Of a stretch of DNA of 64,000 bases, positions 34,283 to 60,029 are shown piece after piece. This DNA is from Phragmitibacter flavus (GTDB taxonomy: Bacteria; Verrucomicrobiota; Verrucomicrobiia; Verrucomicrobiales; Verrucomicrobiaceae). The position numbers and the translations under genes were made by a program. Positions within the stretch are counted from its first letter, which is position 1; every line of letters begins with the position of its first letter. The stretch is from the NCBI RefSeq assembly GCF_005780165.1, contig NZ_VAUV01000005.1:248001-312000 (forward strand), read 5' to 3'. A model generated the notes under the pieces. The model was given only the letters and a program-made list of their open reading frames with translations, was not told the DNA's origin and did not search any database.

Positions 34283-35455
34283 ATGGGCAGGAAGATCGAG
34301 GGCGGAATCAAAGAATATCAAGACCTTGTGCGGTTTACGGCTTCCTCTGCTGATGTTTCTGCGAAAGACCAGATCGACCTCATGTCCCGTAATTGGTTTA
34401 GTTTAACCGCTGGCAGAACTGAAGCCATCCAACATGAATACGTGGATTCCCGCACTGGATTGACTGAAACGGTGCGCATTACTGGTGGTGCTGAACATGG
34501 CGGGATTGCCACTATCTATGATCAAGATCTCCTGATTTTTGCTATCTCACAATGGATTGATGCCAAGCGCATGGGGGTTCCGGTTTCCAGACGCATCCAT
34601 TTCAAACCATATCAGTTTTTCGCATGGTTGAACATTTCGCCTCAGGGCACTGCTTACACACGGCTCAAGGATGCGCTGAACCGTCTAAAGATGACGAGTA
34701 TCCAGACGACTGTTCGCTCACAGGTTGGCAAACGGACGCGAAACCGTATCAAGCAATTTTCGTGGATCTCCGAATGGGAAATCACTGAAGAGGAAGGCGA
34801 AGTTCGCGGCGTCGAAGTGGTTCTGGCCGAATGGCTGTTTGAAAGCATTCAGGATTTCCATGTGCTGACGCTCGATAAACGATATTTTGAGATTCCGGGT
34901 GGAGTCGAACGCTGGCTATACCTCTATGCGAGGAAGGCAACCGGTGGGCCGAATGGCATGTGGAAAGAGACCTTCAAGAGCCTTTACCAGAAATCCGCAT
35001 CACAGCAGGCATACAAGCACTATGCAAGTGCCCTCAGAAAGCTGGTTGAAAAGAATGACCTTCCGGGCATTCGCCTTGAAAAGGTCCGTTCCAGTCAGGG
35101 GAAAGACATGCTGTTAATGGAGCGCACTGAAAAGCGCGTTGCGCCAGAAAACAAAAGCGTTCCTCAGATTGAAAGCCAGTTGTCACTCATCGAGCGCACT
35201 CCTCTTGAAGAGGCGTGGGAGAATGTATTGGAAATCATGCGTAAGCATATCGGAGCCGACCAGACCAAAGCATGGCTTGAAAAACTTCAATTGGTGAGCC
35301 TGGAGGGCGATATTGTTACCTACAAAGCCCCTTCAAAGTTCATAGCTGAATGGGTGGAAAACAATTTCAAACACAAGCTTGAAGCGGCCTGGGAGTCCAT
35401 TGGACAGACCGTGAGTGCAATTCGGATTGAGGCCAAAGGAAAGGCTGCTGCTTAA
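34283..35455 (+). CDS. repA: Replication initiator RepA with C-terminal DnaA domain I-like region
   Basis: A 390-residue plasmid initiator. Residues about 30-290 resemble the RPA/RepA initiator family (NWFSLTAGRTE, IFAISQWIDAKRMG, RLKDALNRLKMTSIQTTVR, FEIPGGVERWLYLYARKA), with two winged-helix-like parts expected to bind iterons. Residues about 308-375 (LEEAWENVLEIMRKHIGADQTKAWLEKLQLV, then YKAPSKFIAEWVENNF) match the N-terminal domain I of DnaA. In DnaA that domain contacts helicase and self-associates. The iterons lie directly upstream, so autoregulation is likely. Confidence 0.85.
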   Translation: MGRKIEGGIKEYQDLVRFTASSADVSAKDQIDLMSRNWFSLTAGRTEAIQHEYVDSRTGLTETVRITGGAEHGGIATIYDQDLLIFAISQWIDAKRMGVPVSRRIHFKPYQFFAWLNISPQGTAYTRLKDALNRLKMTSIQTTVRSQVGKRTRNRIKQFSWISEWEITEEEGEVRGVEVVLAEWLFESIQDFHVLTLDKRYFEIPGGVERWLYLYARKATGGPNGMWKETFKSLYQKSASQQAYKHYASALRKLVEKNDLPGIRLEKVRSSQGKDMLLMERTEKRVAPENKSVPQIESQLSLIERTPLEEAWENVLEIMRKHIGADQTKAWLEKLQLVSLEGDIVTYKAPSKFIAEWVENNFKHKLEAAWESIGQTVSAIRIEAKGKAAA

Positions 35456-35473
35456 AGCGCGTATCGATGCTCG

Positions 35474-35502
35474 TTGACTTTAGCCTCGCCATTTGTTATC
35501 AT
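35474..35502 (+). promoter_or_regulatory. Promoter of the toxin-antitoxin operon
   Basis: TTGACT (-35) and TATCAT (-10) are separated by exactly 17 bp, 37 bp before the antitoxin ATG, which has a GAGGAG ribosome site. Confidence 0.7.
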
Positions 35503-35539
35503 GAAAAAAACAGCGATTTAACTGTTTCGAGGAGCGACC

Positions 35540-35836
35540 ATGATTCAAACGCAAAACATTCATTCACTGACTGATTTCCAGAGAAATACAGCCAGTCATC
35601 TCCGTGCGCTCCGCAAGTCGGGCTTGCCGGAAGTATTGACCGTGAAAGGCAAGGCTGAACTGGTGGTGCAGACTGCGGAAGCATATCAGGCGTTACTGTC
35701 CAGACTGGAGCTTTACGAGTCCGCGATTGCCATCAACCGGGGCTTGCAGGACATCGAAGAAGGCCGTTCCAGCACTCTGGACGATTTTGATCGCCGGATG
35801 CGCTCCAAGGCGGGTTTTTCACCAAGGAAGGACTGA
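35540..35836 (+). CDS. Type II antitoxin, Phd/YefM-like
   Basis: A 98-residue protein with a Phd/YefM-like N-terminus (SLTDFQRNTASHLRALRKSGLPEVLTVKGKAELVVQTAEAYQALL) that forms the DNA-binding dimer. The acidic C-terminal tail should wrap the toxin. Its stop overlaps the toxin start by one base. The pair would act as a plasmid addiction module and repress its own promoter. Confidence 0.85.
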   Translation: MIQTQNIHSLTDFQRNTASHLRALRKSGLPEVLTVKGKAELVVQTAEAYQALLSRLELYESAIAINRGLQDIEEGRSSTLDDFDRRMRSKAGFSPRKD

Positions 35837-36189
35837 TGTCCAAGACCTATGAAGTCATTCTCTCAGCTGAGGCCGAGAGGAATATTGAGGAAGCCGTGGC
35901 TTGGATTGCGGAAGCCAATCCGACGGCGGGGGAGGAATGGTATGTGGGTTTGATTGCAAAGCTTGGCAGCCTGTCGCAAATGCCTTTGCGCTGTCCTGTG
36001 GCTCCAGAATCCAAGCTCGGTCTGGTTGAACGTGAAATTCGCCAGCTTCTTTATGGCCGTCATTTCTGGAAATACCGTGTTCTCTTTTCAGTGGATAAAC
36101 AACGTGTTCTTATCGCGCATGTCAGGCATGGCGCGAGGCTCTACTTGGGGCAACGAGAGGAAGATATTGATGACGGGGAATCCAGTTAG
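35836..36189 (+). CDS. Type II toxin, RelE/ParE family
   Basis: A 117-residue RelE/ParE-fold toxin (YEVILSAEAERNIEEAVAWIAEANPTAGEEWYVGL, then GRHFWKYRVLFSVDKQRVLIAHVRHGAR). The helix pair and terminal strand with conserved Arg suggest the ParE branch, which targets gyrase. RelE-type RNA cleavage cannot be excluded. It converges on the J-like membrane gene with a 4-bp overlap. Confidence 0.85.
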   Translation: MSKTYEVILSAEAERNIEEAVAWIAEANPTAGEEWYVGLIAKLGSLSQMPLRCPVAPESKLGLVEREIRQLLYGRHFWKYRVLFSVDKQRVLIAHVRHGARLYLGQREEDIDDGESS

Positions 36190-37079
36190 CTGTCATTCGT
36201 GCGGCGGAAATGTGCAATAGCCTCATTTAACTCTGCCGATTTTTCGTGGTTCTCAGGCGTCGGTCTGTTCGGATCAGGATGGAATGCCTTCATCAGCTCG
36301 CGGTAGTTCTGTTCCGCCTGCTGCAAGTCGTAAGGCGGTCGCGGGGGCATCAATCTCAGCAATTCTGCATAGCGTTGCTCTATGGCCTGATCAGCAGTTT
36401 CGACGGCTGATTGAGGTGGGCGCGTGCGTTTGGGTTTCCTGCCGCTAGCATTTGGAAGTGGCACTTCAGCAAATGCCCCTCCTCCCGGCATTTTCTCCTC
36501 TGCATCTTCGATGATGTCCGTGTGCTTTTTTTCAGAGCGGATGCCATACCAGTAATTGATGAAGGCTTTCAGCCACATCCCGGCAACTACAACCAGCAGC
36601 CAAAGCGACAGCCATTGTTCAGACAGGAATCCGCGAAAAAAGACGGCGGCGACAAAGACAACAGCAGGTTCAATCCAAAGATGCAGCACAGTTTCAAAGT
36701 CCTGATTACCGCGATTCTGGCTGAATCCGGGGATTCTCAAAAGATGGGAGGTGCCAGCATAGAAGTCATGCTTGCCCTTTCGCTCCTTTTCCCGCCAGAA
36801 GGCGGCGAGAAGATGAGCGACATAGAGGAAGGATGCACTTGCCGCGAAGAGCGCGACTGCCCATAGCGGCTTTCGTAACCAAGGTTCAACCCATGTGACG
36901 ATCAGGAACAGGAAGCTGACCTGTGCGCATGGGAGAAACACAGTTTTAGGGCTTAGGAACGAGTAGCCAAAACTTGAGCGCAGGAAAAGGATGGCAGGCA
37001 TTGCGATCCAGTGCAAAACAGGGCTAAGAACGGGAACGCTTGGTTGCGATCCTGTGGATTGAATCTGCCGGTCTTTCAT
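36186..37079 (-). CDS. Membrane protein with C-terminal J-domain-like segment
   Basis: A 297-residue protein with hydrophobic segments near residues 25-60, 72-95 and 133-170. A cytoplasmic tail ends in a short J-domain-like region, LQQAEQNYRELMKAFHPDPN (with the HPD tripeptide) followed by a helix (AELNEAIAHFRR). It follows the coupling ATPase gene by 7 bp and is surely in its operon. The ATPase lacks membrane helices, so this may be its separate anchor. The role is inferred. Confidence 0.7.
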   Translation of the reverse strand: MKDRQIQSTGSQPSVPVLSPVLHWIAMPAILFLRSSFGYSFLSPKTVFLPCAQVSFLFLIVTWVEPWLRKPLWAVALFAASASFLYVAHLLAAFWREKERKGKHDFYAGTSHLLRIPGFSQNRGNQDFETVLHLWIEPAVVFVAAVFFRGFLSEQWLSLWLLVVVAGMWLKAFINYWYGIRSEKKHTDIIEDAEEKMPGGGAFAEVPLPNASGRKPKRTRPPQSAVETADQAIEQRYAELLRLMPPRPPYDLQQAEQNYRELMKAFHPDPNRPTPENHEKSAELNEAIAHFRRTNDS

Positions 37080-37086
37080 ACGCTAG

Positions 37087-38622
37087 TCAGTATTTTTGGG
37101 GGAACTGGGGCCTGATGTAGTTCTGGGCGACTGGTTCGCCTTTGCGGGTTCCTACCCATCGCCTGCCCCCCTGAAAGATGATGGAATCCACTTTAAACTC
37201 GGATTCCTGGCCGCCAGTCCTCAGCATGGTGAACTCCTGAGGCTGCACCACATATTCAACCACCATGCTGCCCCCTGCACTCTGGTTCATGGCTCCGCCT
37301 TTTGCCAATGCCTCGGACATGCCGCCATAGAATTGGGCCTGCCGGGTTTTGCCGATGGAGTCTGCTGCCCAATTGTTGGTCGTCGGGTCGCCGTTGGCGT
37401 GGAAAATCTTGGTTTGCAGGTTGCCAAGGAAGCTCTCTGCGTCGGAACGGGCGTTGCTGCCTCCGAAAGCTGAGAAGTAGCTGGGGAGATTTTGGGTAAG
37501 GTAGACGGTGCAGGCGCGGGAGCTTCTGGCCGTGCTTTGGAAAAGCGCGTCGTAGGAATTGACGAAAAACTGTGATTCGTCCGCCCACAGGAAAACCGGG
37601 CGAGCCGCAGCCTGAGCCGCTTCGCGGGAGGTGCCTGCGGAAATCCTTCTCTCAACTGCCCTTTGCCAGATGAACTTGAAAAGAACTTGTGCGAACTGCC
37701 CCAGCTCGTTGAACTCCTTAACCGGCAGATTCAGAATGATAATCTTGCCATTGAAGGTGTCCTCTGGGGAAAAGTTGAGGTCTGTGCAAAACAGCTCCCG
37801 CAGCATACCGCGCAGAAAACAGTCGGCCATGCTGGTGAAAGTCGAGACGATAACGGAACGCGTCTCAGGAGCAAGGTTCGGAAATTCCCGCAGCCAGAAG
37901 TCGCGTGTCAGCTCGAGGTCACTCGCCCTGCCCTCACTTTTGACTTTGCCTGCTGCCACTTCCAAAAGGGCAAAGCAGGCAGACTTCTGCTGCCATTCAG
38001 GGTCATCCGCTTCTTCTGTGGAACGGGGGGCAGATGTGATGATGCGGTAGAGCGACGGAAGGTCAATGTCATCCATGGCAATCACTGCGAGGTCTATCGC
38101 ATTGCGGAGGAGTTGCTTGAGTGTGCGCTGCCAGTAAGCGTCCTGTCCACCACCCTGCCCCTGCTTCCGTTCCGCAGCTTCCAGCACGCTGCAAAACAGG
38201 TTTACAAGGTTTTCGGTGTGCCCTGCCCCGGTGCCGGGACGGTTGAATTCATAGCGGAGGAAGTTGAACCGGTGGGGTGATCCCGGCTCCACAATGAGCA
38301 ATTCTGTCTCACGTCCTGCTGCCTTTGCATACTGCTTCCAGGCGAGCACCTCGTCGGCCTTGGCGGTCAAAACAACACCCCCCATGTTGGCCTCAACAAA
38401 AGCTCTGGCGATGCCCTGCCCGCTTCCCGAAGATTTTCCTGAACCTGTGCCTCCAAAAATCTGCACCCCTTCAAAAGCATCCTTAAGACACCAGTAGTTT
38501 TCAGGGCGGCAAGTTTTGCCGTCCGCACTCAGCTCAAGAAGTGCCTCTTCATCGTCCGGCCAGTTCCGGTGAACCGCTGGAGGGATTGTCTGTTTGGAAT
38601 TGGTGAGGGCGAGTTCATCCAT
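37087..38622 (-). CDS. Type IV coupling ATPase (VirD4/TraD-like), soluble form
   Basis: A 511-residue hexameric-type ATPase that links relaxase-bound DNA to a transfer channel. Walker A is GGTGSGKSS at residues 58-66, Walker B is RPVFLWADESQFF near residue 345, and TVYLTQNLPSYF is the downstream sensor region. The usual N-terminal pair of membrane helices is missing; only about 50 residues precede Walker A. The gene diverges from the MobF relaxase gene across a 352-bp gap. Confidence 0.88.
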   Translation of the reverse strand: MDELALTNSKQTIPPAVHRNWPDDEEALLELSADGKTCRPENYWCLKDAFEGVQIFGGTGSGKSSGSGQGIARAFVEANMGGVVLTAKADEVLAWKQYAKAAGRETELLIVEPGSPHRFNFLRYEFNRPGTGAGHTENLVNLFCSVLEAAERKQGQGGGQDAYWQRTLKQLLRNAIDLAVIAMDDIDLPSLYRIITSAPRSTEEADDPEWQQKSACFALLEVAAGKVKSEGRASDLELTRDFWLREFPNLAPETRSVIVSTFTSMADCFLRGMLRELFCTDLNFSPEDTFNGKIIILNLPVKEFNELGQFAQVLFKFIWQRAVERRISAGTSREAAQAAARPVFLWADESQFFVNSYDALFQSTARSSRACTVYLTQNLPSYFSAFGGSNARSDAESFLGNLQTKIFHANGDPTTNNWAADSIGKTRQAQFYGGMSEALAKGGAMNQSAGGSMVVEYVVQPQEFTMLRTGGQESEFKVDSIIFQGGRRWVGTRKGEPVAQNYIRPQFPQKY

Positions 38623-38974
38623 GCAGTCGGTGGTTTGAGTGGCTGGAATCCTAGCCGGGAAGCAGGCTTGCTGCGAGCGGAAAAGACAGCCTAAGCTCTG
38701 CTTAGGAGAGATGTCTGAAGATCATGTTGCAACATTGCTAGCTTGCTAGCTCCCTAGCTTGTTAGACTGCTTTCATGGCTGCAAACTCGCTTGCAACCAG
38801 CCTTGCCAGCTCGCAACCAGACTTGCAGGCTTGCGGTCTCGCTGGGTGGCTAGGCTGCAACTTTGCCAGTCTGCGTGCGTGCTGGGTAGCTCGCTTGATT
38901 GCTGGCAAGCAGGCAATATTTGCCGGTATTCCGGTAAAATGGATTTCGTGGATGCGTTGTGGTAAACTGAAACG
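38623..38974. other. Candidate origin of transfer (oriT) region
   Basis: A 352-bp gene-free gap between the divergent coupling-protein and relaxase genes, the usual place for oriT. It holds a perfect hairpin CCTAAGC-TCT-GCTTAGG (38690-38706) and a palindromic cluster TTGCTAGCTTGCTAGC (38735-38750). Many TTGC/GCAA and CTAGC fragments run to 38910, and TGCCGGTATTCCGGTA lies just before the relaxase. No nick site is recognised. Confidence 0.5.
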
Positions 38975-41900
38975 ATGCTCAGGGTAGTAGCTCACACGAG
39001 CGCGGCAGCGGCTCGAAAATATTACGCGGAAGGTTTGAAGCGTGAGGACTACTATTCCGAAAAACAGGAAATAGTAGGCAAGTGGCATGGGAAGGCGGCG
39101 ACCCTGCTGGGCATTTCCGGGGATGTCGATAAAGAGCATTTTGCTGCCCTCGTGGAGAACCGGCATCCGCTCACCGGGGAGAAGCTGACACCCCGCACCA
39201 AGGACGGTCGCCGGGTTGGCTACGACCTCAACTTTCATGCGCCAAAAAGTCTCTCGGTGCTTTATGCCCTGACTCAGGACAAGGAGGTGCTAAAGGCGTT
39301 TCGGCAGGCGGTTGCAGACACGATGACGGAACTTGAGGAGAGGGCGGAAACGCGGGTTCGGAAAAAAGGGGCGCAGGCGAGCCGCCTCACCGGGAACCTC
39401 GCCTGGGCGGAATTTATCCACTTCACTTCGCGTCCGGTAGGCGGTATTCCAGACCCTCACCTGCACGCCCACTGCTTCACCTTCAACGCAACTTTTGACC
39501 AAAATGAAGACCGCTGGAAAGCGGCGGAATTTGGAGCCATCAAACGCGAAGCCCATTATGCAGAAGCAGCCTTTCATTCCCGGCTGGCCGGTGCGCTTGC
39601 TGCGCAAGGTTATGAAATTTCGCGCCGAAAAGCTGGCTGGGAAATCAAGGGGATGCCCGCCAGCGTCATAGCCAAGTTCTCGCGGCGAACCGCGCAGATT
39701 GAGCGGATGGCCGATGAAATGGGTATCAAGGATGCCAAGGCAAAGGATGCGCTCGGAGCTGCAACCCGCGAGGGAAAACGGCACGGCCTGACTTTTTCAG
39801 ACCTGCTGGCGGCGTGGAGTGTCCGCCTCACCGATGACGAAAAAGCGCAAATCTCAAAGGTTTGTTATGACAAGGGACATGCAACGGTAGCCAAAATCTC
39901 TGCCGTTGAAGCCGTGGATTATGCCATGGCGAAGCTGTTTGAACGCCAGTCCGTGGTCGAGCGCGGCCATATTCTGGCGGCTGCACTCCGTTTCGGGGCA
40001 GGGGACACCAGTCCCCAAGCCATCAAAGCGGAGTTCGAAAGGCGCGGCCTGATTGGCCGGAAAGTCGGGGAGGAGCATCTTTGCACATCGGTTGCCGTGC
40101 TGGCCGAAGAGGTCGCCCTGATCGGATTCGTCAGAACAGGCCGGAATTCTGCCATGCCGCTTGGCGGCAAAGGCAGGTTGGCCATTTCAGAAAAGCTCTC
40201 TGACGAACAGAGGGCGGCGGTCAAGCATCTGCTAACCAGCCGGGATCAGGTGATGGCAATACGCGGCGGGGCTGGGGTTGGCAAAACCACACTTATGAAG
40301 GATGCGGTCGCTGCCATTGAGGCGCGTGGCCTGAAAGTGTTCGCCTTTGCTCCTTCTGCCGTCGCTTCCCGCGAGACCTTACGCGAAGCGGGGTTCGCTG
40401 GTGCTGACACGGTCGCGCATCTGATGCTGAATGAGAAGATGCAAAAGCAGGTTCAGGGGCAGGTGATATGGGTCGATGAAGCGGGGTTGCTTGGGGTTCG
40501 TGACCTGTGGCGTATTATGGAGATCGCCGGGCCAAATACCCGCGTCATCCTGACGGGTGACACAGCGCAGCATTCGCCTGTCGCAAGGGGGGATGCGTTC
40601 AGGCTCCTGCAAAAACATGCTGGCCTTAGGGTGGCAGAAGTGACGGAGATCCGCAGGCAGGAGATCGAGGACTACAAAAAGGCCATTGAAGCCATCAGCA
40701 AAGGAGACCTCCGAACTGGATTCAGGCGCCTCGAAGCTCTTGGGGCTTTCGTCGAGATCGAAGATGAGGCAACCCGGCACAAGGAGCTTGCTGCTGATTA
40801 CCTTGCTCTCAGCAAACGGGGAGAACCGCCGTTGGTGGTTTCGCCGACTCATCTTGAGAGTGCTAAGGTGACGAACGCCATTCGTGAGGCGCGGCGGGAC
40901 GCTGGTCAGCTCGGACCAGAAAGGCATGTTCTTCAATACCAAAATCTACAGTGGGAAGAGGCTGAACGGCAGCTTCCTGAGAATTACCGTGCCGGTCTGG
41001 TGGTGCAGTTCCACCAAAATGCCAAGGGCATCATGCGAGGAGCGATATTCCGTGTTGTGGGGCAGGGCGAAGATGGCTCTATCCAGATGCAGAACCGCTC
41101 CGGGGACGTGATGACGCTGCCCATCAAAGACGCTGCCAAATACCTTGTTTATGAGGAGCGCGAGCTTGCCCTTGCAAAGGGAGACCGCATCCGAATCACG
41201 AGGAACGGGGAAAGCGAGAATGGCAAGCGCCTGAATAATGGCAATGTGCTGACTGTCGAAAAGTTTGGCAAACAAGGGCAAATTATCCTCAGTAACGGGG
41301 CAGTCCTTGATGCCAATCACGGTCATATTGCGCATGGATATTGCCAGACATCGCATTCAAGCCAGAGCAAAAGTGTTCAGGATGTGCTGATTGCGCAGAG
41401 TGCGGATTCGTTCAAAGCGGCATCGCGTGAACAGTTTTATGTTTCGTGCAGCCGGGGCAAACAAACGGTCAGGATTTATACTGACAACCGCAGTGACTTG
41501 CAGCAAGCTGTCGGCAATTCCTCTACCCGCATGTCTGGCGTGGAACTGGCGGAACTGACTTCAAAAGACCTTTCCGGATTCATGAGCAGCGAAATGGGAG
41601 CCAAACAATGGAGGGACGCCATCAAGAGCCGCAGGGGGCTGGATGGCTCGAAAACCTTCGTTGAGCAGCTTGTCGAGCAGCGGAAGACCGATCCTACGCT
41701 CAAGAAAGAGGAAGGCATCTCGTGGAAGGGATATATTGAGATGCGCCGGAACCTGGTCGGGGCGGATGGAAAGAACCGATCCAAGGGGCATCCAGCCGGT
41801 CAGCAGAAAGCTGGTGCGGCCAAGGGTAAAACCACACCAAAGCGCAGCGAGCATTCAGAGGCTCGGGTTGCAGAATTGAAAGCAGCCCAGGAAGCTAAAA

Positions 41901-42205
41901 AATCACAAACTCCGCCAAAGAAAGAGACTCCTAAGGGGCGTCTGGTGAAGGCATATGAATCAGCCGCCAGCCATTTCAAGAAAGTGGCTGACAAGGTGCG
42001 CGGGAGCGCGAAGCAGAAGGCAGAGAAGAAAGAAGTCAGGATGGGCAAAACGACTGCGAAGCCGTTGCAGGAAAACAACGCGGGCAGGGCAGCGGATCAT
42101 ACTGCACGCGCAAAGACTGCCAAAGCTGGCAAAGAGAAGGCAAAGGCTGCACAACAACAAAAGGCTCAGTCGCGGAAGGCACCGGTGCAAACCCCTAAAA
42201 AGTGA
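38975..42205 (+). CDS. MobF-family conjugative relaxase-helicase (TrwC/TraI)
   Basis: A 1076-residue relaxase. The N-terminal 300 residues are the HUH relaxase: tyrosine pairs Y16/Y17 and Y26/Y27 and the three-His motif DPHLHAHCF (H162, H164, H166). A RecD-like 5'-3' helicase follows, with Walker A GGAGVGKTT near residue 430, then IWVDEAGLLG, and HGYCQTSHSSQSKS near the end. The last 180 residues are Lys/Ala-rich and probably disordered. It nicks oriT and leads the strand into the recipient. It starts a three-gene operon. Confidence 0.93.
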   Translation: MLRVVAHTSAAAARKYYAEGLKREDYYSEKQEIVGKWHGKAATLLGISGDVDKEHFAALVENRHPLTGEKLTPRTKDGRRVGYDLNFHAPKSLSVLYALTQDKEVLKAFRQAVADTMTELEERAETRVRKKGAQASRLTGNLAWAEFIHFTSRPVGGIPDPHLHAHCFTFNATFDQNEDRWKAAEFGAIKREAHYAEAAFHSRLAGALAAQGYEISRRKAGWEIKGMPASVIAKFSRRTAQIERMADEMGIKDAKAKDALGAATREGKRHGLTFSDLLAAWSVRLTDDEKAQISKVCYDKGHATVAKISAVEAVDYAMAKLFERQSVVERGHILAAALRFGAGDTSPQAIKAEFERRGLIGRKVGEEHLCTSVAVLAEEVALIGFVRTGRNSAMPLGGKGRLAISEKLSDEQRAAVKHLLTSRDQVMAIRGGAGVGKTTLMKDAVAAIEARGLKVFAFAPSAVASRETLREAGFAGADTVAHLMLNEKMQKQVQGQVIWVDEAGLLGVRDLWRIMEIAGPNTRVILTGDTAQHSPVARGDAFRLLQKHAGLRVAEVTEIRRQEIEDYKKAIEAISKGDLRTGFRRLEALGAFVEIEDEATRHKELAADYLALSKRGEPPLVVSPTHLESAKVTNAIREARRDAGQLGPERHVLQYQNLQWEEAERQLPENYRAGLVVQFHQNAKGIMRGAIFRVVGQGEDGSIQMQNRSGDVMTLPIKDAAKYLVYEERELALAKGDRIRITRNGESENGKRLNNGNVLTVEKFGKQGQIILSNGAVLDANHGHIAHGYCQTSHSSQSKSVQDVLIAQSADSFKAASREQFYVSCSRGKQTVRIYTDNRSDLQQAVGNSSTRMSGVELAELTSKDLSGFMSSEMGAKQWRDAIKSRRGLDGSKTFVEQLVEQRKTDPTLKKEEGISWKGYIEMRRNLVGADGKNRSKGHPAGQQKAGAAKGKTTPKRSEHSEARVAELKAAQEAKKSQTPPKKETPKGRLVKAYESAASHFKKVADKVRGSAKQKAEKKEVRMGKTTAKPLQENNAGRAADHTARAKTAKAGKEKAKAAQQQKAQSRKAPVQTPKK

Positions 42206-46959: not shown

Positions 46960-47829
46960 ATGTCGAGTATATCAGGACTGGATGAGGCGTTTTACGGCAG
47001 ATTGCTCAAAGAAATCGAGCGGCTCGAAGGTGTTTTAGCATTCGGTAACGTGGCCGATGCTTCTGTGCGTTCGGCATTGGAACTTTACATTCAATCAGCC
47101 AAGAAACAGGTTGCTCATTTTGAGGTGATCGAGAAAGAGGCAATTGAAGAAAAGAAGAAAAGCGGGGAAATTGCGTTAGAAATAGCTGCTCAGAAGGCGC
47201 AGATGGAAACTGCCTTAAACGAGCAGGAGAGAGCGCAATTCCAATCGTTCCTTGAACAGGAGTATTTCACCAAGGCTGATTTTGGGAAACTGGAATCGTT
47301 CTATACTAAGAGCTGGGACAAACTGACTGACCAGGGCAAAGATGAAATGAGCCATCGTGTCTGGGAAGGTGTGCGACGTGAGGAATATCAGTTCAGCGAA
47401 TTGCCTGATATCGTGAAAGAGAAGGAAGCGGAGCGGCTCAATCAGCGGCTTCTAGATCCCAGAAAGATGACGCCAGAATTACAAGCAATTCCAGAGCGTG
47501 ATCGAGATGATTTCACTGAGGCATGGGGTCGCAAACAACGTGAGGAAGCTTATGAAATTCTGGACAGGCCAACATTCGCAGAAAACTTAGTTGTTAAAAG
47601 AACAGAAGATAAATCGCAATTCGCAAACGTGACCGATGTTCAAATAGCTGACAAATTAATTGCGAATAAGGTCGAGAAGCCAGCTTCCCAACCTAGTCCA
47701 TCAGCTATTGAGCTAATGGACAGTAATAAAATAAAATTTGAAGAGCTAACGATTATTGAAAGCCCTATGCTAGCTGCGCCACTCAGTAATTTAAAACAGC
47801 AGGCGGAAGGAAATGCCGTAAAAAAATAA
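46960..47829 (+). CDS. Coiled-coil protein sharing a motif with the convergent neighbour
   Basis: 289 residues, soluble, mostly helical and charged. Residues about 85-145 (ERAQFQSFLEQEYFTKADFGKLESFYTKSWDKLTDQGKDEMSHRVWEG) closely resemble residues about 218-277 of the protein at 47830-48849. The conserved pattern is FGxLExFY, DKLTxxGK and RxWxG. No known family. The two stops face each other with no spacer. Confidence 0.65.
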   Translation: MSSISGLDEAFYGRLLKEIERLEGVLAFGNVADASVRSALELYIQSAKKQVAHFEVIEKEAIEEKKKSGEIALEIAAQKAQMETALNEQERAQFQSFLEQEYFTKADFGKLESFYTKSWDKLTDQGKDEMSHRVWEGVRREEYQFSELPDIVKEKEAERLNQRLLDPRKMTPELQAIPERDRDDFTEAWGRKQREEAYEILDRPTFAENLVVKRTEDKSQFANVTDVQIADKLIANKVEKPASQPSPSAIELMDSNKIKFEELTIIESPMLAAPLSNLKQQAEGNAVKK

Positions 47830-48849
47830 CTACTTCATGTTTATAGCAGATTCAAGGATGCCGATCTCAAGCTCTGATTGAGCAAGTGCTCCCAGATCCA
47901 TGAAAATTCCAGAAATCACTCTCTTGAACTTGGCGGACGCTTCTTCCGGCAGTGCGGCGTCCAGTTTATTAAATAGCTCGGTTTGTAAGGTTTGGTATTG
48001 GCGATAGCTGGTGACCGCATCAAGCAGGAAATTGTCAGGTTTCTGGCTTTGTGTCCCGTTCCATGCCCGACGGCTGATCTCTTCTTTGCCTTCCTCGGTA
48101 AGTTTATCGAATCCGGTTTTATAAAATTGTTCAAGTTGGCCGAAGTGCTCCCTCGTAAATTGGGCGTAGCTGAGCAGGACTTCGTATTGTTTTCGTTCAG
48201 CGGCGTTCAGCGCATTTTCCTGTTCGACCAGAGCGGCAACGTCTTTTCTGGATACGGCACTCCCGCTTCCCGAAACAAGAGCTGATTGGAGTTTTAACTG
48301 CAAGTGCTCGAACCCGCCTTCGACACTGTTGCCGCCTTTCATTGCTTCGAATACCAGTTCTTGGTGCCGATTAAGTATTTCAATGGCTACTGTTCCGGTG
48401 TTTTGTTCGCCTTGTATACCCTGCCTCGTGCACCTACCTGCTTCTTTGGCGAGCACATCCAAGCCGAGCTTGGGGGAGAGCAGGTTCCAGTTAGTGACCA
48501 ACTGGTTTAGGTATTCATCTGTCAGATGGTCTGGCAGGCTGTTCCGGGTTTTTCCTGTTTTTGACCTGAACTTTTCCGAGACACGTCCATGTTCAGCTTG
48601 GATGTGCTCGATGTATGGTTCCGGGCTGCCGTAGTATTCCATGCTCCCGGCGATCTGGAGGAAGATGTTTGTGAGATTTGTCTGGGCAGGCTTAAATCCC
48701 TCATTTGGATCAAAAAAACGCAGATAGGCTGTAGATCGCGGGGCGTCCTGCGCGGAGGCAAATGTGGGGAGCAGAAGCAACAAGGGCGCAATGTAAAACG
48801 CGTAAATTGCTAAATTCCAGAGTGTTAACGATTTTTGAACCAGTTTCAT
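47830..48849 (-). CDS. Exported protein sharing a motif with the convergent neighbour; start inside an inverted repeat
   Basis: 339 residues from the ATG at 48849 (a GTG at 48864 is the alternative). A signal peptide (MKLVQKSLTLWNLAIYAFYIAPLLLLLPTFASA) leads to a mostly helical mature protein. The FGQLEQFYKTGFDKLTEEGKEEISRRAWNG stretch matches the neighbour at 46960-47829. The start region lies inside the left copy of the 25-bp inverted repeat, so inversion of the adjacent segment would change its promoter and first codons. The function is unknown. Confidence 0.65.
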   Translation of the reverse strand: MKLVQKSLTLWNLAIYAFYIAPLLLLLPTFASAQDAPRSTAYLRFFDPNEGFKPAQTNLTNIFLQIAGSMEYYGSPEPYIEHIQAEHGRVSEKFRSKTGKTRNSLPDHLTDEYLNQLVTNWNLLSPKLGLDVLAKEAGRCTRQGIQGEQNTGTVAIEILNRHQELVFEAMKGGNSVEGGFEHLQLKLQSALVSGSGSAVSRKDVAALVEQENALNAAERKQYEVLLSYAQFTREHFGQLEQFYKTGFDKLTEEGKEEISRRAWNGTQSQKPDNFLLDAVTSYRQYQTLQTELFNKLDAALPEEASAKFKRVISGIFMDLGALAQSELEIGILESAINMK

Positions 48850-48860
48850 GGGATTCTGTT
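48836..48860. repeat. 25-bp inverted repeat, left copy
   Basis: The perfect reverse complement of 49489-49513. It contains GAACCAG and CTGTTC arms about 12 bp apart, the general look of a tyrosine-recombinase core site. It covers the translation start of the leftward gene. Confidence 0.92.
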
Positions 48861-48875
48861 CCACGGGAGTGAAAC

Positions 48876-49442
48876 ATGAACCGAGAAACCTACAGCGCCT
48901 ATGACCTCGAGGGTCGGCGGAAATATCTTACTCAGGAAGAGGGGCGCAGGTTCCTTAAAATTGCTCGCAGGCGGAAACGCGCTGAGGCACTTTTCTGCAT
49001 GACGATCTACTACACCGGAATGCGGATTTCGGAGGCTTTGGCGCTGTCGGGTCAGGACATCGATTTCTCCACAGGTGTGATCCGTATACGATCGTTGAAG
49101 AAGCGCGAGCGCCGGGAATTCAGGCGAATTCCCGTGCCCAACTCACTTTTGTCGGGACTGCGACAATTGAGGGGAGACAGGACCGAAGGACCGCTTTGGA
49201 CATTTTCCCGAACCACTGGTTGGAGAATCATCAAGCAGATCATGAACGAAGCGGAAATATCAGGTATACATGCGACAACAAAAGGACTGAGACATGCTTT
49301 TGGAGTCAGAGGCGCAATCGCCAAAATCCCCCTCAATTTATTGCAGCTTTGGTTTGGCCATTCCCAGTCAGCCACCACTGCGATTTATCTTAATGTGAGG
49401 GATGACGAAGAGCGAACGCTGATTCGAAGAACGTGGAAATAG
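48876..49442 (+). CDS. Minimal tyrosine recombinase between inverted repeats
   Basis: 188 residues, only the catalytic domain plus a short lead. Active-site residues: R50 (TGMRISEAL), the box II R139 and H140 (KGLRHAFGV, with Lys136 where His is usual), H162 (FGHSQSATT) and Tyr171. There is no room for a full core-binding or arm-binding domain, so a resolvase or invertase role is more likely than classical tRNA-site integration. The start codon is 27 bp from the divergent gene's ATG. The gene lies inside a segment bounded by 25-bp inverted repeats. Confidence 0.88.
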   Translation: MNRETYSAYDLEGRRKYLTQEEGRRFLKIARRRKRAEALFCMTIYYTGMRISEALALSGQDIDFSTGVIRIRSLKKRERREFRRIPVPNSLLSGLRQLRGDRTEGPLWTFSRTTGWRIIKQIMNEAEISGIHATTKGLRHAFGVRGAIAKIPLNLLQLWFGHSQSATTAIYLNVRDDEERTLIRRTWK

Positions 49443-49488
49443 CCGAATTTACCGATTGAGAACTGGCGTCAATGGCGTATTTTTATGA

Positions 49489-49513
49489 AACAGAATCCCA
49501 TGAAACTGGTTCA
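49489..49513. repeat. 25-bp inverted repeat, right copy
   Basis: Perfect inverted copy of 48836-48860, 46 bp past the recombinase stop. A start-like ATG precedes it, and the short reading frame here begins with the same MKLV codons as the leftward gene. It then continues into sequence with no sign of a real protein up to about 49761. Confidence 0.92.
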
Positions 49514-49761
49514 CGTCCAGCGTTGTATGAGTAGGAGCCAGGAATTAAGGTTGAAGGGGTGGAGGGGTGGTGATGCAGGATTGGGGCGAAAGGACCTGCA
49601 TTTTCAATTCCGGCAGATAGCTGCCGATGCCTCCAAGGGGGGGGTTACTTCACTCATAGGCCGGAGGCAAAACCCAGGGACGGGCAGGGCGGGGACTTTT
49701 CCGAAGTTGAAAGCAAAGCGAGCAAGCGAGTGGTGCGCCTGCTGCTCTGCCTATGCTGGCT

Positions 49762-49956
49762 TCAAAGAAGTCGCTTCCGAATAATATTGCGAACGATTGC
49801 GGCCACGGTTTCAACTGGCTGGCGCATCGGGTTGCCAGTCCAGCCCAGGCATGCAGCGCGGAGGGCAAGCTGGCTTTCCAGCTCATCATACTCCGCATCT
49901 GTGAGGTCTGCCGTTTCCATCAGCTCGGCATCAGAGAGGGAAAGGAGCAAGTTCAT
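49762..49956 (-). CDS. Small protein translationally coupled to ardC
   Basis: 64 residues, helical (SDAELMETADLTDAEYDELESQLALRAACLGW, then VETVAAIVRNIIRKRLL). Its ATG overlaps the ardC stop (TAATG), which strongly supports translation. No family recognised. Possibly an accessory of ArdC. Confidence 0.65.
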   Translation of the reverse strand: MNLLLSLSDAELMETADLTDAEYDELESQLALRAACLGWTGNPMRQPVETVAAIVRNIIRKRLL

Positions 49957-50849
49957 TATGCGACCTCCTCTGGTTGAGTGTTCAGGATGTAGTTCGCGGC
50001 CTTTTGCGCCTGTGAGGCTGCGCGAATGATCCAGCCTTTTGCGTCCTTGGATTTAAGGGCATTGATCCAGCTTTGCAGGTAGGCGGCTGAGTTTGAAAGC
50101 TCGTCTTCCATGATTCCGGCGTGGGCGTTCAGAAATGAAGCCCCCATTTCGGCCAACAGTTCTTCCTCGGCGTAGGTCTTGATTGCAGTGTCTCCGCCTG
50201 CGTCAATGCCCTTGTTCTCAAGCAGGGATTTGCGGGCAAGGCGTTTACTGTGGCCGGTGCTGTGCGCCAGTTCGTGAAATAGTGTGGAATAATACTCTTC
50301 TTCACTGCCAAAAAATCCCGCTTCCGGCATGTGGACGCTGTCAGTTCCGGGACGGTAGCAGGGGATTGCTTTCCCTTCCTTGATAACGGGAGCGTTTGGC
50401 ATTCCTGCCACAATGTTACGTGCGCGGGCGGTCTTTTCCGTCAAGGAAAGTTCGGGCAGATTTTCCACTGCAGGAAACTCGATGCCTTCGATCTGCGAGG
50501 CATGGAAGACGGTGTAGGCCTTCAGGAAGCGGCGGGTTTCCGGGTCTTCCCCTGTGGCTGCGTGCTCGTCCTCTTTGGTATAGGTGCCGTATTTAACGAC
50601 CAGCGAACCGCGTTCACCTTTCCTGACATGTCCGCCAAGTTCTTTGGCCTGAATGAAGGTCAGAAAATAGGGGGATGTGAAGCGAAGGCTTCCAAGCAGG
50701 AAGACGTTAATTCCCTGATAGGCTTTGCCTGTTGAAAAGTTCTGCGGGAACCCCACCTTTGAGAAGTAGGGTGATTTCCACGGAACAACTCCTTGTTCCA
50801 GTTGGGTGATAATGCGGTCTGTAACTTGTTGGTAGATGTCTTGTTTCAT
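49956..50849 (-). CDS. ardC: ArdC-like antirestriction protein
   Basis: 297 residues. The N-terminal ssDNA-binding ArdC domain (DIYQQVTDRIITQLEQGVVPWKSPY, then FSTGKAYQGINVFLL) is followed by a zincin-like metalloprotease domain with FHELAHSTGH (HExxH). ArdC proteins protect incoming plasmid DNA from restriction during conjugation. The start at 50849 has a near-perfect ribosome site (GGAGGAAACA); earlier in-frame codons have none. Confidence 0.9.
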   Translation of the reverse strand: MKQDIYQQVTDRIITQLEQGVVPWKSPYFSKVGFPQNFSTGKAYQGINVFLLGSLRFTSPYFLTFIQAKELGGHVRKGERGSLVVKYGTYTKEDEHAATGEDPETRRFLKAYTVFHASQIEGIEFPAVENLPELSLTEKTARARNIVAGMPNAPVIKEGKAIPCYRPGTDSVHMPEAGFFGSEEEYYSTLFHELAHSTGHSKRLARKSLLENKGIDAGGDTAIKTYAEEELLAEMGASFLNAHAGIMEDELSNSAAYLQSWINALKSKDAKGWIIRAASQAQKAANYILNTQPEEVA

Positions 50850-51162
50850 ATTGTTTCCTCCGATGCGTTTTTGCATATGCTTTGCCTTTGCAAAAACATG
50901 CGTGACCCCAGCCGGAGGAGTGGGCGGGCAGTCAAGGGAGGGTCTAAAGGAGGGGTATCTCCCAAAGTCCCGCATCGAGGCACGAGAGAGGACAATTTGG
51001 GGACACCTTTGGATGCCCTTGACGGAGCGAACACCCGCGAGGCAGTTAGAGATGCAGGAGTGAACGCAGGGAACGGGAGCGTCAAACTATGCCGCTTTTA
51101 AGCGGTAATTAATTGGCACGGGGACAGACCGGAACGGTGAAGACTGAAGCGCAGCGGAAGGC

Positions 51163-54527: not shown

Positions 54528-55196
54528 TTGATTTTGTCCCAAAATCAGTTTACACCTGCCGGAATGGAGCGAAGCAACAAACTTGGCGGGAAGCGGGACG
54601 GTGCCGGAAGGCCTCGGAAATTCGCGCAATATGAGGAGCCTACCACCCGCATTCGGGTGCCAGTGAGCCTTACCGATGACATTTACCGTTTCATCAGCTC
54701 CGATATTCGCATACCGCTGTTTTCGTCGGTGGCTCCTGCGGGTTTTGTGTCTCCTGCGGATGACTTCATTGAAACGACATTCACCGTTAAGGAGCTGGTG
54801 GAGTATTTCATGCAGCGACCGGCAGCCACATTCCTGGTGCGCATTTCCGGCTGGTCGATGAAGAATGCAGGCATCAATGATGGCTCTATTGTCATTTGCG
54901 ACCGTGGGCTTGACCCTGCGGATGGTGACGTGGTGCTTGCCTCGGTTGACGGTCAGGTGACGTGCAAACGCCTGCGGCTGGAAGGGGAGACAGTGGTCTT
55001 GTGTCCTGACAATGAAGAATTTGAGCCGGTGATCGTCGGGGCGCTGAGCGATCTTGTGGTGTGGGGTGTCGTCACCGGGAATTTCAACATGCACAGGAAC
55101 GCCAATGGCTCCAAAGGCAAAGGCAAGAAGATGTCCCGAATCAAAATGGGCGCGACTGGTTCGGTAGCCCCTTCCAAAACCAAAAAGGCTTCCTGA
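54528..55196 (+). CDS. umuD: UmuD-like S24 peptidase with N-terminal extension
   Basis: LexA/UmuD-fold self-cleaving serine protease. The cleavage region is VAPAGFVSPADDF, the catalytic Ser is in ISGWSMKNAGI, and the catalytic Lys is in VTCKRLRLEG. At 222 residues it is longer than UmuD (about 140), with an N-terminal GGKRDGAGRPRKF segment and a basic tail. The start may instead be the ATG at 54564. With umuC 37 bp downstream it forms a plasmid-borne DNA polymerase V operon. Confidence 0.88.
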   Translation: MILSQNQFTPAGMERSNKLGGKRDGAGRPRKFAQYEEPTTRIRVPVSLTDDIYRFISSDIRIPLFSSVAPAGFVSPADDFIETTFTVKELVEYFMQRPAATFLVRISGWSMKNAGINDGSIVICDRGLDPADGDVVLASVDGQVTCKRLRLEGETVVLCPDNEEFEPVIVGALSDLVVWGVVTGNFNMHRNANGSKGKGKKMSRIKMGATGSVAPSKTKKAS

Positions 55197-55232
55197 ACAT
55201 GCCGCTGCAAGCGCAAAATTCGGGAGCCTGAT

Positions 55233-56492
55233 ATGTTTGCCCTGGTTGACTGCAATAATTTTTACGCCTCCTGCGAACGGGTTTTCAACCCTTCGCTTGA
55301 AGGCAAGCCCATCGTAGTTCTGTCGAATAATGATGGCTGTGTTATCGCCAGGTCTAATGAGGCAAAAGCCCTCGGCATCAAAATGGGCGAGCCTTATTTC
55401 AAGGGGCGAGAGCTGATGGAGAAAAACCGCGTGGTGGTGTTTTCCTCAAATTACGAACTCTATGGCGACATGTCGGCGCGGGTGATGCAGACCTTGCTGC
55501 TGCACACGCCGGTCATTGAGAATTACTCAATTGATGAGGCGTTCCTCGATATGGATGGGTTCGGGAAGCCGCTTGAACATGCGGCAAACCTGCGCCGCAT
55601 TGTGAAACAGTGGACGGGGATTCCGGTTAGTGTCGGCATCGGGCCGACAAAGACCCTGAGCAAAGTTGCGAACAGGATCGCCAAAAAAGCTCTGGTGAAT
55701 GTGGGTGTTTGCGGGCTGCTCACCGCTGAGGAAATCACGGCTGCGCTTGTGAGTTTCCCTGTAGAAGATGTGTGGGGGATTGGGCGGCAGTCGGCTGGCT
55801 TCCTTGCAAAGCACGGGATCGGCACGGCAGAGCAATTCCGGGCAATGCCTGACAACTGGATTCGGAAGAACATGCATGTGGTGGGGCTTCGCATTGCCTG
55901 GGAGCTGCGCGGCATCAAATGCCATGAGCTTGAGTTCACGCCTCCGGCCAAGAAGAGTATTTGTGTCTCGCGTTCCTTTTCAGAGAGGCTGACTGCTATG
56001 GAATCCGTTAGCGAAGCACTGCTTACGCATACGGCGAGGGCAGGGGAGAAGCTGCGGCATAACCGGCTGCTGGCAACGCGTATGATGGTCTTCCTGCACA
56101 CAAGTCCGCATGCCCCCAATGAGCCTTTTTATTACGGCAAGTTGCCGATAAAACTCCCGTTCCCGACGAATGACACTTTGGATTTGAGTCATTTTGCCGT
56201 GGCTGCTTTGAAACAGGTTTTCAAGGCAGGGCACCGCTACATGAAATGCGGGCTGGAGCTTTCGGAGATGGTTGCAGAAGGAACGGAAAATCTTGAGCTG
56301 TTCGCTCCGGTCAAGAAGGAGCGGAACCATGCCTTGATGAAGGCCATGGATGAGCTGAACCAGAAAATGGGTCGGAACACGGTAGTTTTTGCTGGGTCTG
56401 GAGTGAAGCGCGAATGGTTCACCAAGCGCGACCTCCGTTCCCCGCGCTATACCACTGACATGAATGAACTGGTGATCGCATACGCGAACTGA
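55233..56492 (+). CDS. umuC: DNA polymerase V catalytic subunit UmuC (Y family)
   Basis: 419 residues, full length. Y-family motifs [21 protein letters not shown] (first metal Asp) and [11 protein letters not shown] (catalytic acidic pair), then the thumb helix-hairpin-helix ([21 protein letters not shown]) and C-terminal UmuC-specific domain ([17 protein letters not shown]). It performs error-prone synthesis past lesions. Plasmid copies can help repair incoming DNA. Confidence 0.94.
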
Positions 56493-56530: not shown

Positions 56531-59029
56531 TTAAACAGTTTGTTGGAGCATAATCGTGTTCTCGATAACGGTTTCGATTTCGCTGTAAATATCAACACTT
56601 TCCTTTGCGCACTCAATCGACACGATCAATGAGTAGTTCATTATCGCCTCCGCTCGGTCATGGCTGGATCGCGTGCGCCACCATCCTGTAACGGGATAGA
56701 CCGCAATGTGTTTCATGCTGATTAAATCAGCGGCAGAGCCCTCCCACATATCTGAGTGAATCGAGCCCTTGAAGCATTCCTGGCCGAGTAGCCAACCGTC
56801 GGTTGAGCCTCTGACGTGTTGTCTGTCATCTGTAATAAATTCGTCTGATGCGATTTTGTTTACATCGGCGTTCAAATCTTCGGCTGCCTGGCCAGGAGCC
56901 GACACTTTAAACCTGAGAGCACAACTTGCGTAGCGGAACTGTGATGTGTAACCACGATTGCCTGGGTTGGGTTCGATGAAGTAGGACAGCGTGACGCGCA
57001 TTCTTACTTTTTCAGTCGGATTGGTAGTCAGGGTATTTGCTGGCCAAGGCAGACTGTGGAGATGCATTTTGTTGAAGAGAGTCTTTTCACCTTCAATCTT
57101 AAAGGGCTGAATTTGACATTCAGAAATCAGGGTTGCGCTATTTTTAGAGCATTCAATGGCGCGACGAAGATTTGGCACGCCATAGCCAACCGTTCGCAAG
57201 AGAAAGGTAGCCCTATCGGATTTCAGCCGACTTTTTTCTCGTGGGATTGTTGTTTCCATCGCATCTGTCCAATGAGCGGAATGAATCATCAATCCCCGGA
57301 TGGTCTCAGGTGAGTAATCGGGATATTCCGCCATCAGGATGGCCGCCATTCTGGCAGCCAAAGCTGTGGCTGGACTCGTTCCGGATGTGGTGCCGAACAC
57401 GCCCTCATTGTATTGAGCGTGGGTGGATAGTAACATCAGTTCGTCGAGATTCAGGGTAGAATGGTTAGCCGCTTGATAGCCTGCGTTTCCGCCTTCAAAA
57501 ACGATGTCAGGTTTATTTGGCCAATGGTTAGCCCATTCAATGGACGTGCTGCTGACTGGTGAGAGCGCACCACGAATTGCAAGAGGAGTATACGAAGAAG
57601 CGAGTCGAATCGTCTGTAACTCAGTATACGCGCCAACACAAAGTGCATTCCATGACTGTCCTGGATTGCGAACTGTGTGTTGGTAATTAGACGCCGGATA
57701 GTCTTTCCATAAATCTTGTGGAATGTTTCCTGCGCTTAAACACAAAAGTCGACGCAACTCCCCTTCATTGTCAACTCCCGCTGCTAAATTATCCATTTGC
57801 GAGGACCATGATGTGGGAATCGCTTGATTGGGTTCTGACATCGTGGTGGTGATGCACCAGATTCTTCTCCGATCGCGTCTGCGTGCCTCAGATAGAGAAA
57901 CACCCTGCGCTGTATAGTAGCCAGCGAGTTTTTCATCAGTATTTTTTTGAAGAGGCGGCGGCACTATTTTTACGCCCTCCACATTTACAGGCATTTCAAC
58001 GCGTTGGGTTCCTGAAAGTATTCCAGCTAAGTCGCCATACAGACACAATCCGGCCATAAGAGTTCCGTGATTGTCATCATCGCCTGAGCTCCAGCTTAGT
58101 TCAATGGTCATGTTATCCTCTTCTCCGATGAGCTTTTCGAGCATCGGATGGCCACGATTGATTCCAGTGTCCAGAACACTGATCCATGGTGCATTAGGAT
58201 CTGAATCTGAGATTCGCACCAGCAGATCATCTCCATATTCAATTTGCTCGGATGGAAGCATGCCGGAAAATACGTCAGCGTAGTCACGACCTCGTCGAAT
58301 CTCAGAAATGCAGTTGAGCACTGCAACATCCCTTGCAAAATCACTTCCACGACCGAACGCTGCAAGAATCGTATGTTCAGGTAATTTGATCCTACCTTTC
58401 CCAACGCGAATACCTTGTTGCTCAGCGAGGATTACAAATTGTTTTAGAATGACCTCGCGTTCGTTTTCGGAAGCACCGCGTCGCAACCATATTTCTAACC
58501 ATAGCTCGTCGTTTGCAGGAAAGGGTTCCGTTTCTGTCCATAGTTCCTTGGCTGCGGCTAAGTGGACACGTTCAATAGCTTCAACGAGCGGTCGATATAG
58601 GGGTTTGCCTCTGTGTTTCTGAGTCAGATAACTATTTACTATTTCATCGAGGACCGAGAGTTTTCCGTCGGGCACAAACCAGGTCTGATTGTTCAGCAGC
58701 GTATGGCCAGATTGAACTGTTCGCTCATTCAGCAATTCCCACCCATTTTCAATAAGCCGATCTACCGGAATAAAAGTATTTGGCGCACTCTCAAGTTCTA
58801 CAGATATTCCCCGAGCCTTGATAGATTCATTTCCTTCCCAGCTTTGTGCAAGCACCTGATAGCTAGCGTCTATGGATTGGATCTGTCGATCAAGTGCCCT
58901 CCCATGCCCCGCGAAATTGTGACGAGTGGGTGTAGTAGGGGAATTACCTCTTTTCTTGGACTTGTAATCCTTTTGAGAATAAAATCGTTCAACGCGTAGG
59001 TGGCGCTTTCTTTGTTCTTCTTGCGCCAT
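56531..59029 (-). CDS. ietS: Subtilisin-like serine protease IetS
   Basis: An 832-residue S8 protease. Triad: Asp near 286 (WISVLDTGINRGHP), His near 321 (DDDNHGTLMAG), Ser near 550 (TTSGTSPATALAARM). There is no signal peptide, so it is cytoplasmic. Its start overlaps the AAA ATPase gene by 41 bp. A protease-ATPase pair of this kind is the IetAS system, first described as a plasmid-stability toxin-antitoxin on a Ti plasmid and later reported as anti-phage. The assignment is by gene pair and domain match. Confidence 0.88.
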   Translation of the reverse strand: MAQEEQRKRHLRVERFYSQKDYKSKKRGNSPTTPTRHNFAGHGRALDRQIQSIDASYQVLAQSWEGNESIKARGISVELESAPNTFIPVDRLIENGWELLNERTVQSGHTLLNNQTWFVPDGKLSVLDEIVNSYLTQKHRGKPLYRPLVEAIERVHLAAAKELWTETEPFPANDELWLEIWLRRGASENEREVILKQFVILAEQQGIRVGKGRIKLPEHTILAAFGRGSDFARDVAVLNCISEIRRGRDYADVFSGMLPSEQIEYGDDLLVRISDSDPNAPWISVLDTGINRGHPMLEKLIGEEDNMTIELSWSSGDDDNHGTLMAGLCLYGDLAGILSGTQRVEMPVNVEGVKIVPPPLQKNTDEKLAGYYTAQGVSLSEARRRDRRRIWCITTTMSEPNQAIPTSWSSQMDNLAAGVDNEGELRRLLCLSAGNIPQDLWKDYPASNYQHTVRNPGQSWNALCVGAYTELQTIRLASSYTPLAIRGALSPVSSTSIEWANHWPNKPDIVFEGGNAGYQAANHSTLNLDELMLLSTHAQYNEGVFGTTSGTSPATALAARMAAILMAEYPDYSPETIRGLMIHSAHWTDAMETTIPREKSRLKSDRATFLLRTVGYGVPNLRRAIECSKNSATLISECQIQPFKIEGEKTLFNKMHLHSLPWPANTLTTNPTEKVRMRVTLSYFIEPNPGNRGYTSQFRYASCALRFKVSAPGQAAEDLNADVNKIASDEFITDDRQHVRGSTDGWLLGQECFKGSIHSDMWEGSAADLISMKHIAVYPVTGWWRTRSSHDRAEAIMNYSLIVSIECAKESVDIYSEIETVIENTIMLQQTV

Positions 59030-60029
59030 GACTTTCTATGGGTTTGCGTTTGGTTCGTTTGACACGCTCATCAATAGCCTTCAGCAGAAGTGCCGTTGTA
59101 AGCTTCGGTTTTTGTTCAATTAGTCTTTCTTTGACGGCATCATCAGCAGCTCTAACGGCCTCAGCGAGATTCAAGGTTGCAGAAGCATCGAGGATTTTTT
59201 TCCAATTTATAGCAGAACGCATTTCATTAGCAAGTCGTTGCTCAAAAACTGCCTTCAGCTCATCCTGAGATGGGAGTGTGTATTCAATAATGTCATCAAA
59301 ACGTCGGAAGAGCGCGTCGTCCAGCGACTCAGGATGGTTTGATGCAGCGATAATCAGACTATGCCCGCGCATACCCTCTAGGAAAACAAGGAAACTGTTG
59401 AGAACACGACGCATTTCTGCCACATCAGACTGGGCACCACGCGAAAGACCCAATGAATCGAATTCGTCAAAAAGAAATACCGCACGATGTGATTCGATTG
59501 CGTCGAAGACAATGCGAAGTTTAGAGGCCGTTTCGCCCAAGAATTTGGTGAAAAGCGCATCAAGCCGAAGCACAAAGAGCGGAAGTCCTAGCTCGTGAGC
59601 GAGAGCATGGGCTGTCATTGTTTTTCCGCATCCGGGAGGTCCGAGAAGTAACAAACGCTGGCGTGGCCTTAATCCGTGTTCGCGAAGTTTGTTAAATTGT
59701 TGCTGTTCCTTCACGACTCGCTTGAGACGGCGACTGAGGTCGGGTGAGAGCACCAATTGCTGCAAAGCAACCGTCGGCTGGATCAATTCGAGAAGTCCGG
59801 CCAGCTCCCCTTGCGGCCGTGCAAAATTTATAGAATTTGTTTTTGTCTGTGAAGGGAATTGCGCAATTCGTGGAGCTTTTGAGATGAGCTCTTGAATCTG
59901 TTTGGCAAGATCATCATGCCCTTTCCTAGCCTCATTCGCCGCAACCTGTAGGGCGGCTGTGCGAAAGCGTTCATCATCTCCAGCCACATGACTTTTGAGC
60001 AATTCGAGAATTTGACGCGCTGTGGCCAT
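58989..60029 (-). CDS. ietA: AAA ATPase IetA
   Basis: 346 residues. Walker A LLGPPGCGKT near residue 132, Walker B FLFDEFDS near 188, sensor SNHPESLDDALFRRFDD with the Arg finger. The N-terminal helical part (about 1-60) has no named domain. In IetAS the ATPase counteracts the protease (antitoxin-like role). It lies first in the operon. Confidence 0.9.
   Translation of the reverse strand: MATARQILELLKSHVAGDDERFRTAALQVAANEARKGHDDLAKQIQELISKAPRIAQFPSQTKTNSINFARPQGELAGLLELIQPTVALQQLVLSPDLSRRLKRVVKEQQQFNKLREHGLRPRQRLLLLGPPGCGKTMTAHALAHELGLPLFVLRLDALFTKFLGETASKLRIVFDAIESHRAVFLFDEFDSLGLSRGAQSDVAEMRRVLNSFLVFLEGMRGHSLIIAASNHPESLDDALFRRFDDIIEYTLPSQDELKAVFEQRLANEMRSAINWKKILDASATLNLAEAVRAADDAVKERLIEQKPKLTTALLLKAIDERVKRTKRKPIESHGARRTKKAPPTR

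Follow-up and report, generated by a model that had tools for sequence, protein, structure and literature searches.

The E. coli fim switch is an invertible promoter controlled by FimB and FimE, small tyrosine recombinases of about 200 amino acids whose genes lie outside the segment that inverts. Hin, which inverts the H segment of Salmonella, is a serine recombinase and works with a Fis enhancer. In that segment (hixL, hixR, fljBA promoter; see PMC9368917) the recombinase gene lies inside and a promoter reads out into a neighbour, an arrangement that the locus described here resembles. In cryptic prophages of E. coli, inversion of the PinQ/P segment alters phage resistance, according to PMC12529663.

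We analysed a window of 64,000 nucleotides from Phragmitibacter flavus (Verrucomicrobiota; RefSeq assembly GCF_005780165.1, contig NZ_VAUV01000005.1, positions 248,001 to 312,000 of the forward strand), and positions are given in window numbering throughout. The locus is probably a self-contained invertible promoter switch of Hin-like design that uses a tyrosine recombinase, with the following parts and neighbours:

46960..47829, plus strand: protein A, 289 aa, convergent with B, related to B in sequence and conserved beside it
47830..48849, minus strand: protein B, 339 aa, with an N-terminal leader by inspection and an all-alpha model
48836..48863, no strand: putative left recombination site, comprising arm TGAACCAGTTT, spacer CATGGG (48847-48852) and arm ATTCTGTTCCA
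48865-48869: SD-like GGGAG ahead of the recombinase gene
48876..49442, plus strand: small tyrosine recombinase of 188 aa comprising just the catalytic domain, encoded within the predicted invertible segment
49456..49483, plus strand: predicted outward sigma70-like promoter, between the recombinase stop codon and the right site
49486..49513, no strand: putative right recombination site, inverted, spacer CCCATG (49497-49502), 27/28 identical to the left site
49514..49955, no strand: right flank, present target of the predicted promoter, lacking the HTH gene found in relatives
49956-50975, minus strand: ArdC, the first supported gene beyond the right site

The first-pass annotation of this DNA had described a recombinase gene bounded by identical inverted 25-mers, and the two copies (48836-48860 and 49489-49513) are indeed identical and inverted; over the full 28 nt of each site (48836-48863 and 49486-49513) the agreement is 27/28. 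With up to 3 mismatches allowed, the 25-mer occurred at these two places only in the window (expected 0.00; maximum of 100 shuffles 0), and the same two sites were its sole occurrences in the 5.9-Mb genome at that threshold. The repeat consists of near-dyad arms around an asymmetric 6-bp spacer and is, judged by its sequence, a recombination site. The left copy lies, as annotated, over the start codon of a predicted exported protein: the complement of B's ATG occupies 48847-48849, within the spacer CATGGG. The description of the right copy was also correct, in that it repeats the same codons and is followed by no supported gene before ArdC. The segment in the window is about 650 bp long.

The recombinase was scored against Pfam Phage_integrase (PF00589) at 77.9 bits (cut-off 27.1; E 1e-21), which places it in the tyrosine recombinase superfamily; the match covers residues 16-176 only of the 188 aa, consistent with the minimal catalytic domain previously proposed. 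Residues R50, K75, R139, H162 and Y171 were invariant across 25 aligned copies, and position 136 was K in at least 90% of them, at what we take to be the place of the usual box II first histidine under our presumed assignment of the R-K-H-R-H-Y motif. Scores fell far below the curated cut-offs of the FimB/FimE-type models NF007371 (40.6 bits; cut-off 222) and NF007370 (30.1 bits; cut-off 221) and below those of the XerA/XerC/XerD equivalogs (best NF040815, 70.2 of 220 bits), and the nearest solved structures by sequence were Xer-type enzymes. The PF00589 match is of the tyrosine type and sets the protein apart from the serine recombinases of the Hin family: the switch would work like the Hin system without its enzyme being a member of that family.

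Relatives were collected from overlapping sets of 57, 386, 384, 68, 74, 260 and 387 genomes and from one search of genome contigs. At this similarity level 32 recombinase copies were found in Verrucomicrobiota. The window's family contributes 6 of them (from 6 of 68 genomes), a second family 7 (from 5 of 74 genomes) and a third family 13 (from 8 of 260 genomes), while the remaining 6 come from other parts of the class (5 further genomes); the three close named records were likewise from Verrucomicrobiota. A similarity search of plasmid DNA with 2.6 kb of the locus returned no match, an alignment-based scan of viral contigs returned 68 loci, of which the best 13 included 12 usable ones with no inverted pair, and phage records gave 7 weak partial matches. 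Of 23 more distant homologues, one was truncated; the other 22 had sufficient sequence and showed no flanking inverted repeats of this kind within 900 bp. As a separate observation, L099, L100 and L101 carry two tandem dyad sites, possibly resolution sites, upstream of plasmid-borne recombinase homologues.

An inverted partner site with an identical asymmetric spacer, an arrangement expected of an inverton, accompanied 31/32 copies, inverted and direct placement being told apart in L072 and L076 by two spacer positions only. The exception was L069, which has the recombinase and no partner site even by a longer-range search; partners at first thought missing in L065, L070, L072 and L076 were located by that search at 1.9, 3.7, 4.5 and 9.0 kb, respectively. 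The common site plan is an 11-bp arm, a 6-bp spacer and an 11-bp arm, about 28 bp in all; 27 pairs agree at 21/28 or better, one further pair joins L076 with L125 (24/24, partner 9 kb away), and the pairs of L068, L117 and L118 match mainly in the core. The repeats, whose absence from close relatives had been named in advance as evidence against a switch, were kept in 6/6 copies of the window's family.

Identity within 28 pairs was 1.00 at the central six positions, dropping to about one quarter at distances above 14 bp from the axis, in a profile centred on cores chosen as identical; these pairs comprised 20 distinct central hexamers. Because of that centring, the spacer test was repeated with the axis taken from arm score only. 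Among the 16 pairs so selected (L069 passed the arm cut and, being partnerless, fell outside them), mismatches within pairs numbered 0/96 in spacers versus 41/352 in arms. Between copies, the proportion of differing positions was 0.59 for spacers and 0.28 for arms. So low a spacer mismatch was reached by 0/10,000 re-pairings, with the same outcome when the window's copy was the only one kept from its family and five were dropped (n = 11). Spacers that vary among copies yet match within pairs are, as a sequence pattern, the mark of site-specific recombination.

Comparison of related elements for both orientations, a check named beforehand, revealed one natural inversion. The segment of L060 (genome G016) aligns reversed to those of L061, L058 and L059, both flanks align forward, and the outer-arm letters GGTTCA, part of B's flank, remain with B. 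L061, the tree sister of the G016 copy (100/85), has the usual orientation. Beside the A/B pair, the recombinase diverges from B in 13/14 copies and reads towards it in 1/14 (G016), and because only this one copy is inverted, switching may be rare or old. Both orientations are thus represented by G016 and its five family relatives, between species and not within one population. With inverted sites common to the relatives, this inversion supports the possible invertible switch that the first-pass annotation had suggested.

Promoters were scored in 30 copies (L069 and L076 left out) by using an E. coli sigma70 matrix, against dinucleotide shuffles. Outward from the 3' end of the recombinase gene, p was < 0.05 in 13/30 copies (Fisher 1.4e-12) and at least 0.05 for the other 17/30 single promoters, compared with 0/30 (Fisher 0.997) outward from the 5' end, which faces into B in the usual orientation; the Fisher values treat kin copies as independent and, because the copies are related, are too small in absolute terms, so that the contrast among positions carries the evidence. 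Right flank inward and right end inward gave Fisher values of 0.85 and 0.9994, and weaker signals were seen for left flank inward (0.005) and right flank outward (0.02). The left-flank inward signal, contributed largely by the third family, may represent a promoter for the recombinase gene itself. By consensus enrichment, a predicted promoter therefore lies inside the segment and faces out. In the window it reads TTGAGA (49456-49461), a 16-bp gap and TATTTT (49478-49483), with p 0.015 by shuffles, and is directed right, away from B; in G016, TTGAGA-17-TACAAT faces B and is among the best scores. The right flank of relatives often holds an HTH gene (in the window's family, and also in L117, L123 and the second unit of L063). 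One of the two switch outputs may be dead in the window, because its right flank has no obvious gene. No ribosome-binding site for B was seen by eye in either orientation.

In the mechanism we propose, this recombinase would bind the two inverted sites of about 28 bp around its own gene, and strand exchange within the identical spacers would flip the segment of about 650 bp. The promoter just behind the recombinase gene, if active, would read out of the segment. In the usual orientation, that of the window, it would point towards the right flank, leaving B promoterless and predicted off; after inversion it would read into B, which begins within the site, and turn B on, and such switching may still occur. 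The earlier claim that inversion swaps B's promoter and leader would hold for the promoter, which faces outward at the far end, and for the 5' untranslated region; the signal peptide is coded outside the segment and would be unchanged.

Plasmid multimer resolution, or Xer-like maintenance, in which element dimers are resolved and the second site is incidental, is an improbable alternative, although the strongest of those considered. The closest kin outside the phylum are plasmid-borne small tyrosine recombinases about 39-46% identical. In favour of such a role, more distant homologues occur on plasmids next to WGR, ParA and RepA genes, and dyad sites precede the gene in some of them; resolution, however, requires either a single site in each copy or sites in direct orientation, and here 31/32 have an inverted, spacer-matched second site, with an outward promoter at the segment end. 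Repeat-bearing copies do not form one clade on the recombinase tree, and 8/9 repeat-free homologues in the tree cluster together (93/87) between two repeat-bearing groups. Multimer resolution may be the ancestral role of the recombinase.

A and B are convergent and alike in sequence (one single-linkage cluster); they lie beside the recombinase in 6/6 copies of the window's family and in most of the second family, whereas in the third family a different pair (clusters c6/c8) takes this position in several copies. B begins with a hydrophobic stretch that looks by eye like a leader. The structure model of B (pLDDT 83) is all-alpha; Foldseek returned nothing at E ≤ 0.001, and the best VIA Z was 5.7, which is uninformative for helical bundles. 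A VirB5-like or entry-exclusion role for B was considered and found no support. The window also contains an RPA-type replication initiator, a VirD4-like coupling protein and a TrwC relaxase, close together at 34283-42205, in addition to ArdC. Relaxase, VirD4-like or ArdC homologues occur near several other recombinase copies, and therefore the setting often appears to be a conjugative plasmid or integrated element. Elsewhere in the window, a peptidase S24 / UmuD-like gene is followed by a UmuC-type polymerase gene (54528-56492), and a subtilase-like gene adjoins an AAA ATPase gene as a minus-strand pair (56531-60029).

Long segments (1.4-9 kb) that carry extra genes make up five of the 31 and are listed below, where PDC-S01 and Ppl are family labels and not functional assignments:

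L065, 1.9 kb: PDC-S01 match, 6.7e-80
L070, 3.7 kb: TrlF-family ATPase above the NCBIfam cut-off, with a Ppl match
L072, 4.5 kb: LmuA, LmuB and LmuC (Lamassu)
L076/L125, 9.0 kb: GajA, GajB and others (Gabija)
L116, 1.4 kb: VapC-type PIN protein (toxin), below the NCBIfam cut-off

In L072 (7811-12346) perfect inverted sites enclose an LmuA-LmuC-LmuB operon that converges on the recombinase gene, and from L076 7851 to L125 2867 (G143:C41) GajA/GajB and further genes are enclosed by inverted sites that match perfectly over 24 bp and are separated by 9 kb. Cargo-bearing copies fall in four places on the tree, with partly weak support between them. In L073 and L121 a type I restriction gene (in L121 a lookalike, by eye) sits beyond the right site, reading away. 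In one genome, L063 (8204-14065) has two recombinase units with different sites flanking a 1160-aa MkoC-like protein. The defence or toxin genes of long segments would flip with the rest; that their expression depends on orientation is conjecture, and the cargo genes may have their own promoters.

Inverted termini that enclose a recombinase gene, and cargo that varies between them in five relatives, could also describe a tiny mobile element with terminal inverted repeats and a tyrosine recombinase, but homologous flanks run collinear on both sides throughout the window's family, 14 copies retain the adjoining A/B pair and one terminus overlaps B's coding start, and we regard this reading as very unlikely. 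Least probable is that the repeats, each near-dyad and operator-like, are only autoregulatory operators and that G016 was inverted by general recombination, for which 28 bp is short; an operator role would not call for asymmetric spacers that match in opposite orientation, and within pairs the spacers are identical while the arms drift.

If the locus is a promoter switch of the kind proposed, a Hin-like design has been reached with the other class of recombinase, in a phylum that is little studied and on its conjugative elements, and it would offer a compact one-gene inversion tool; the 28-bp site with its matched spacer is defined well enough for immediate test in E. coli. More tentatively, and with somewhat less than even confidence, we suggest that these are widespread flippable cassettes on Verrucomicrobiota conjugative elements, in which one promoter is toggled between two neighbours and the segment also accepts cargo, making Lamassu, Gabija, TrlF/Ppl-like systems and a toxin-antitoxin gene phase-variable units. 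Inversion of the cargo-bearing copies, if it occurs, would switch whole defence systems on and off and would bear on why defence genes adjoin recombinases.

In the open-licence literature, with most subscription papers outside its scope, we found no report of a promoter switch with the recombinase inside the segment, of invertible recombinase loci in Verrucomicrobia or of invertible Gabija or Lamassu cassettes. The locus shares with fim a small tyrosine recombinase and an invertible promoter, although its match to NF007371 is weak and far below the cut-off, and differs from it in having the recombinase gene inside the segment instead of outside. The WGR/ParA/RepA-linked plasmid recombinases are its closest kin outside the phylum, but no flanking inverted sites were found with them. 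With the Rci shufflon of IncI plasmids (PMC5430464) it shares a tyrosine recombinase, inverted sites, a conjugative plasmid and a surface protein as output; in the shufflon several segments exchange the C-termini of PilV, and here there is one segment with a promoter. PinQ/P differs in using a serine recombinase and in swapping tail-fibre coding ends, with no promoter or defence cassette inside. Relative to Hin, the present locus has a tyrosine recombinase and different sites, is set in a conjugative element and can include cargo.
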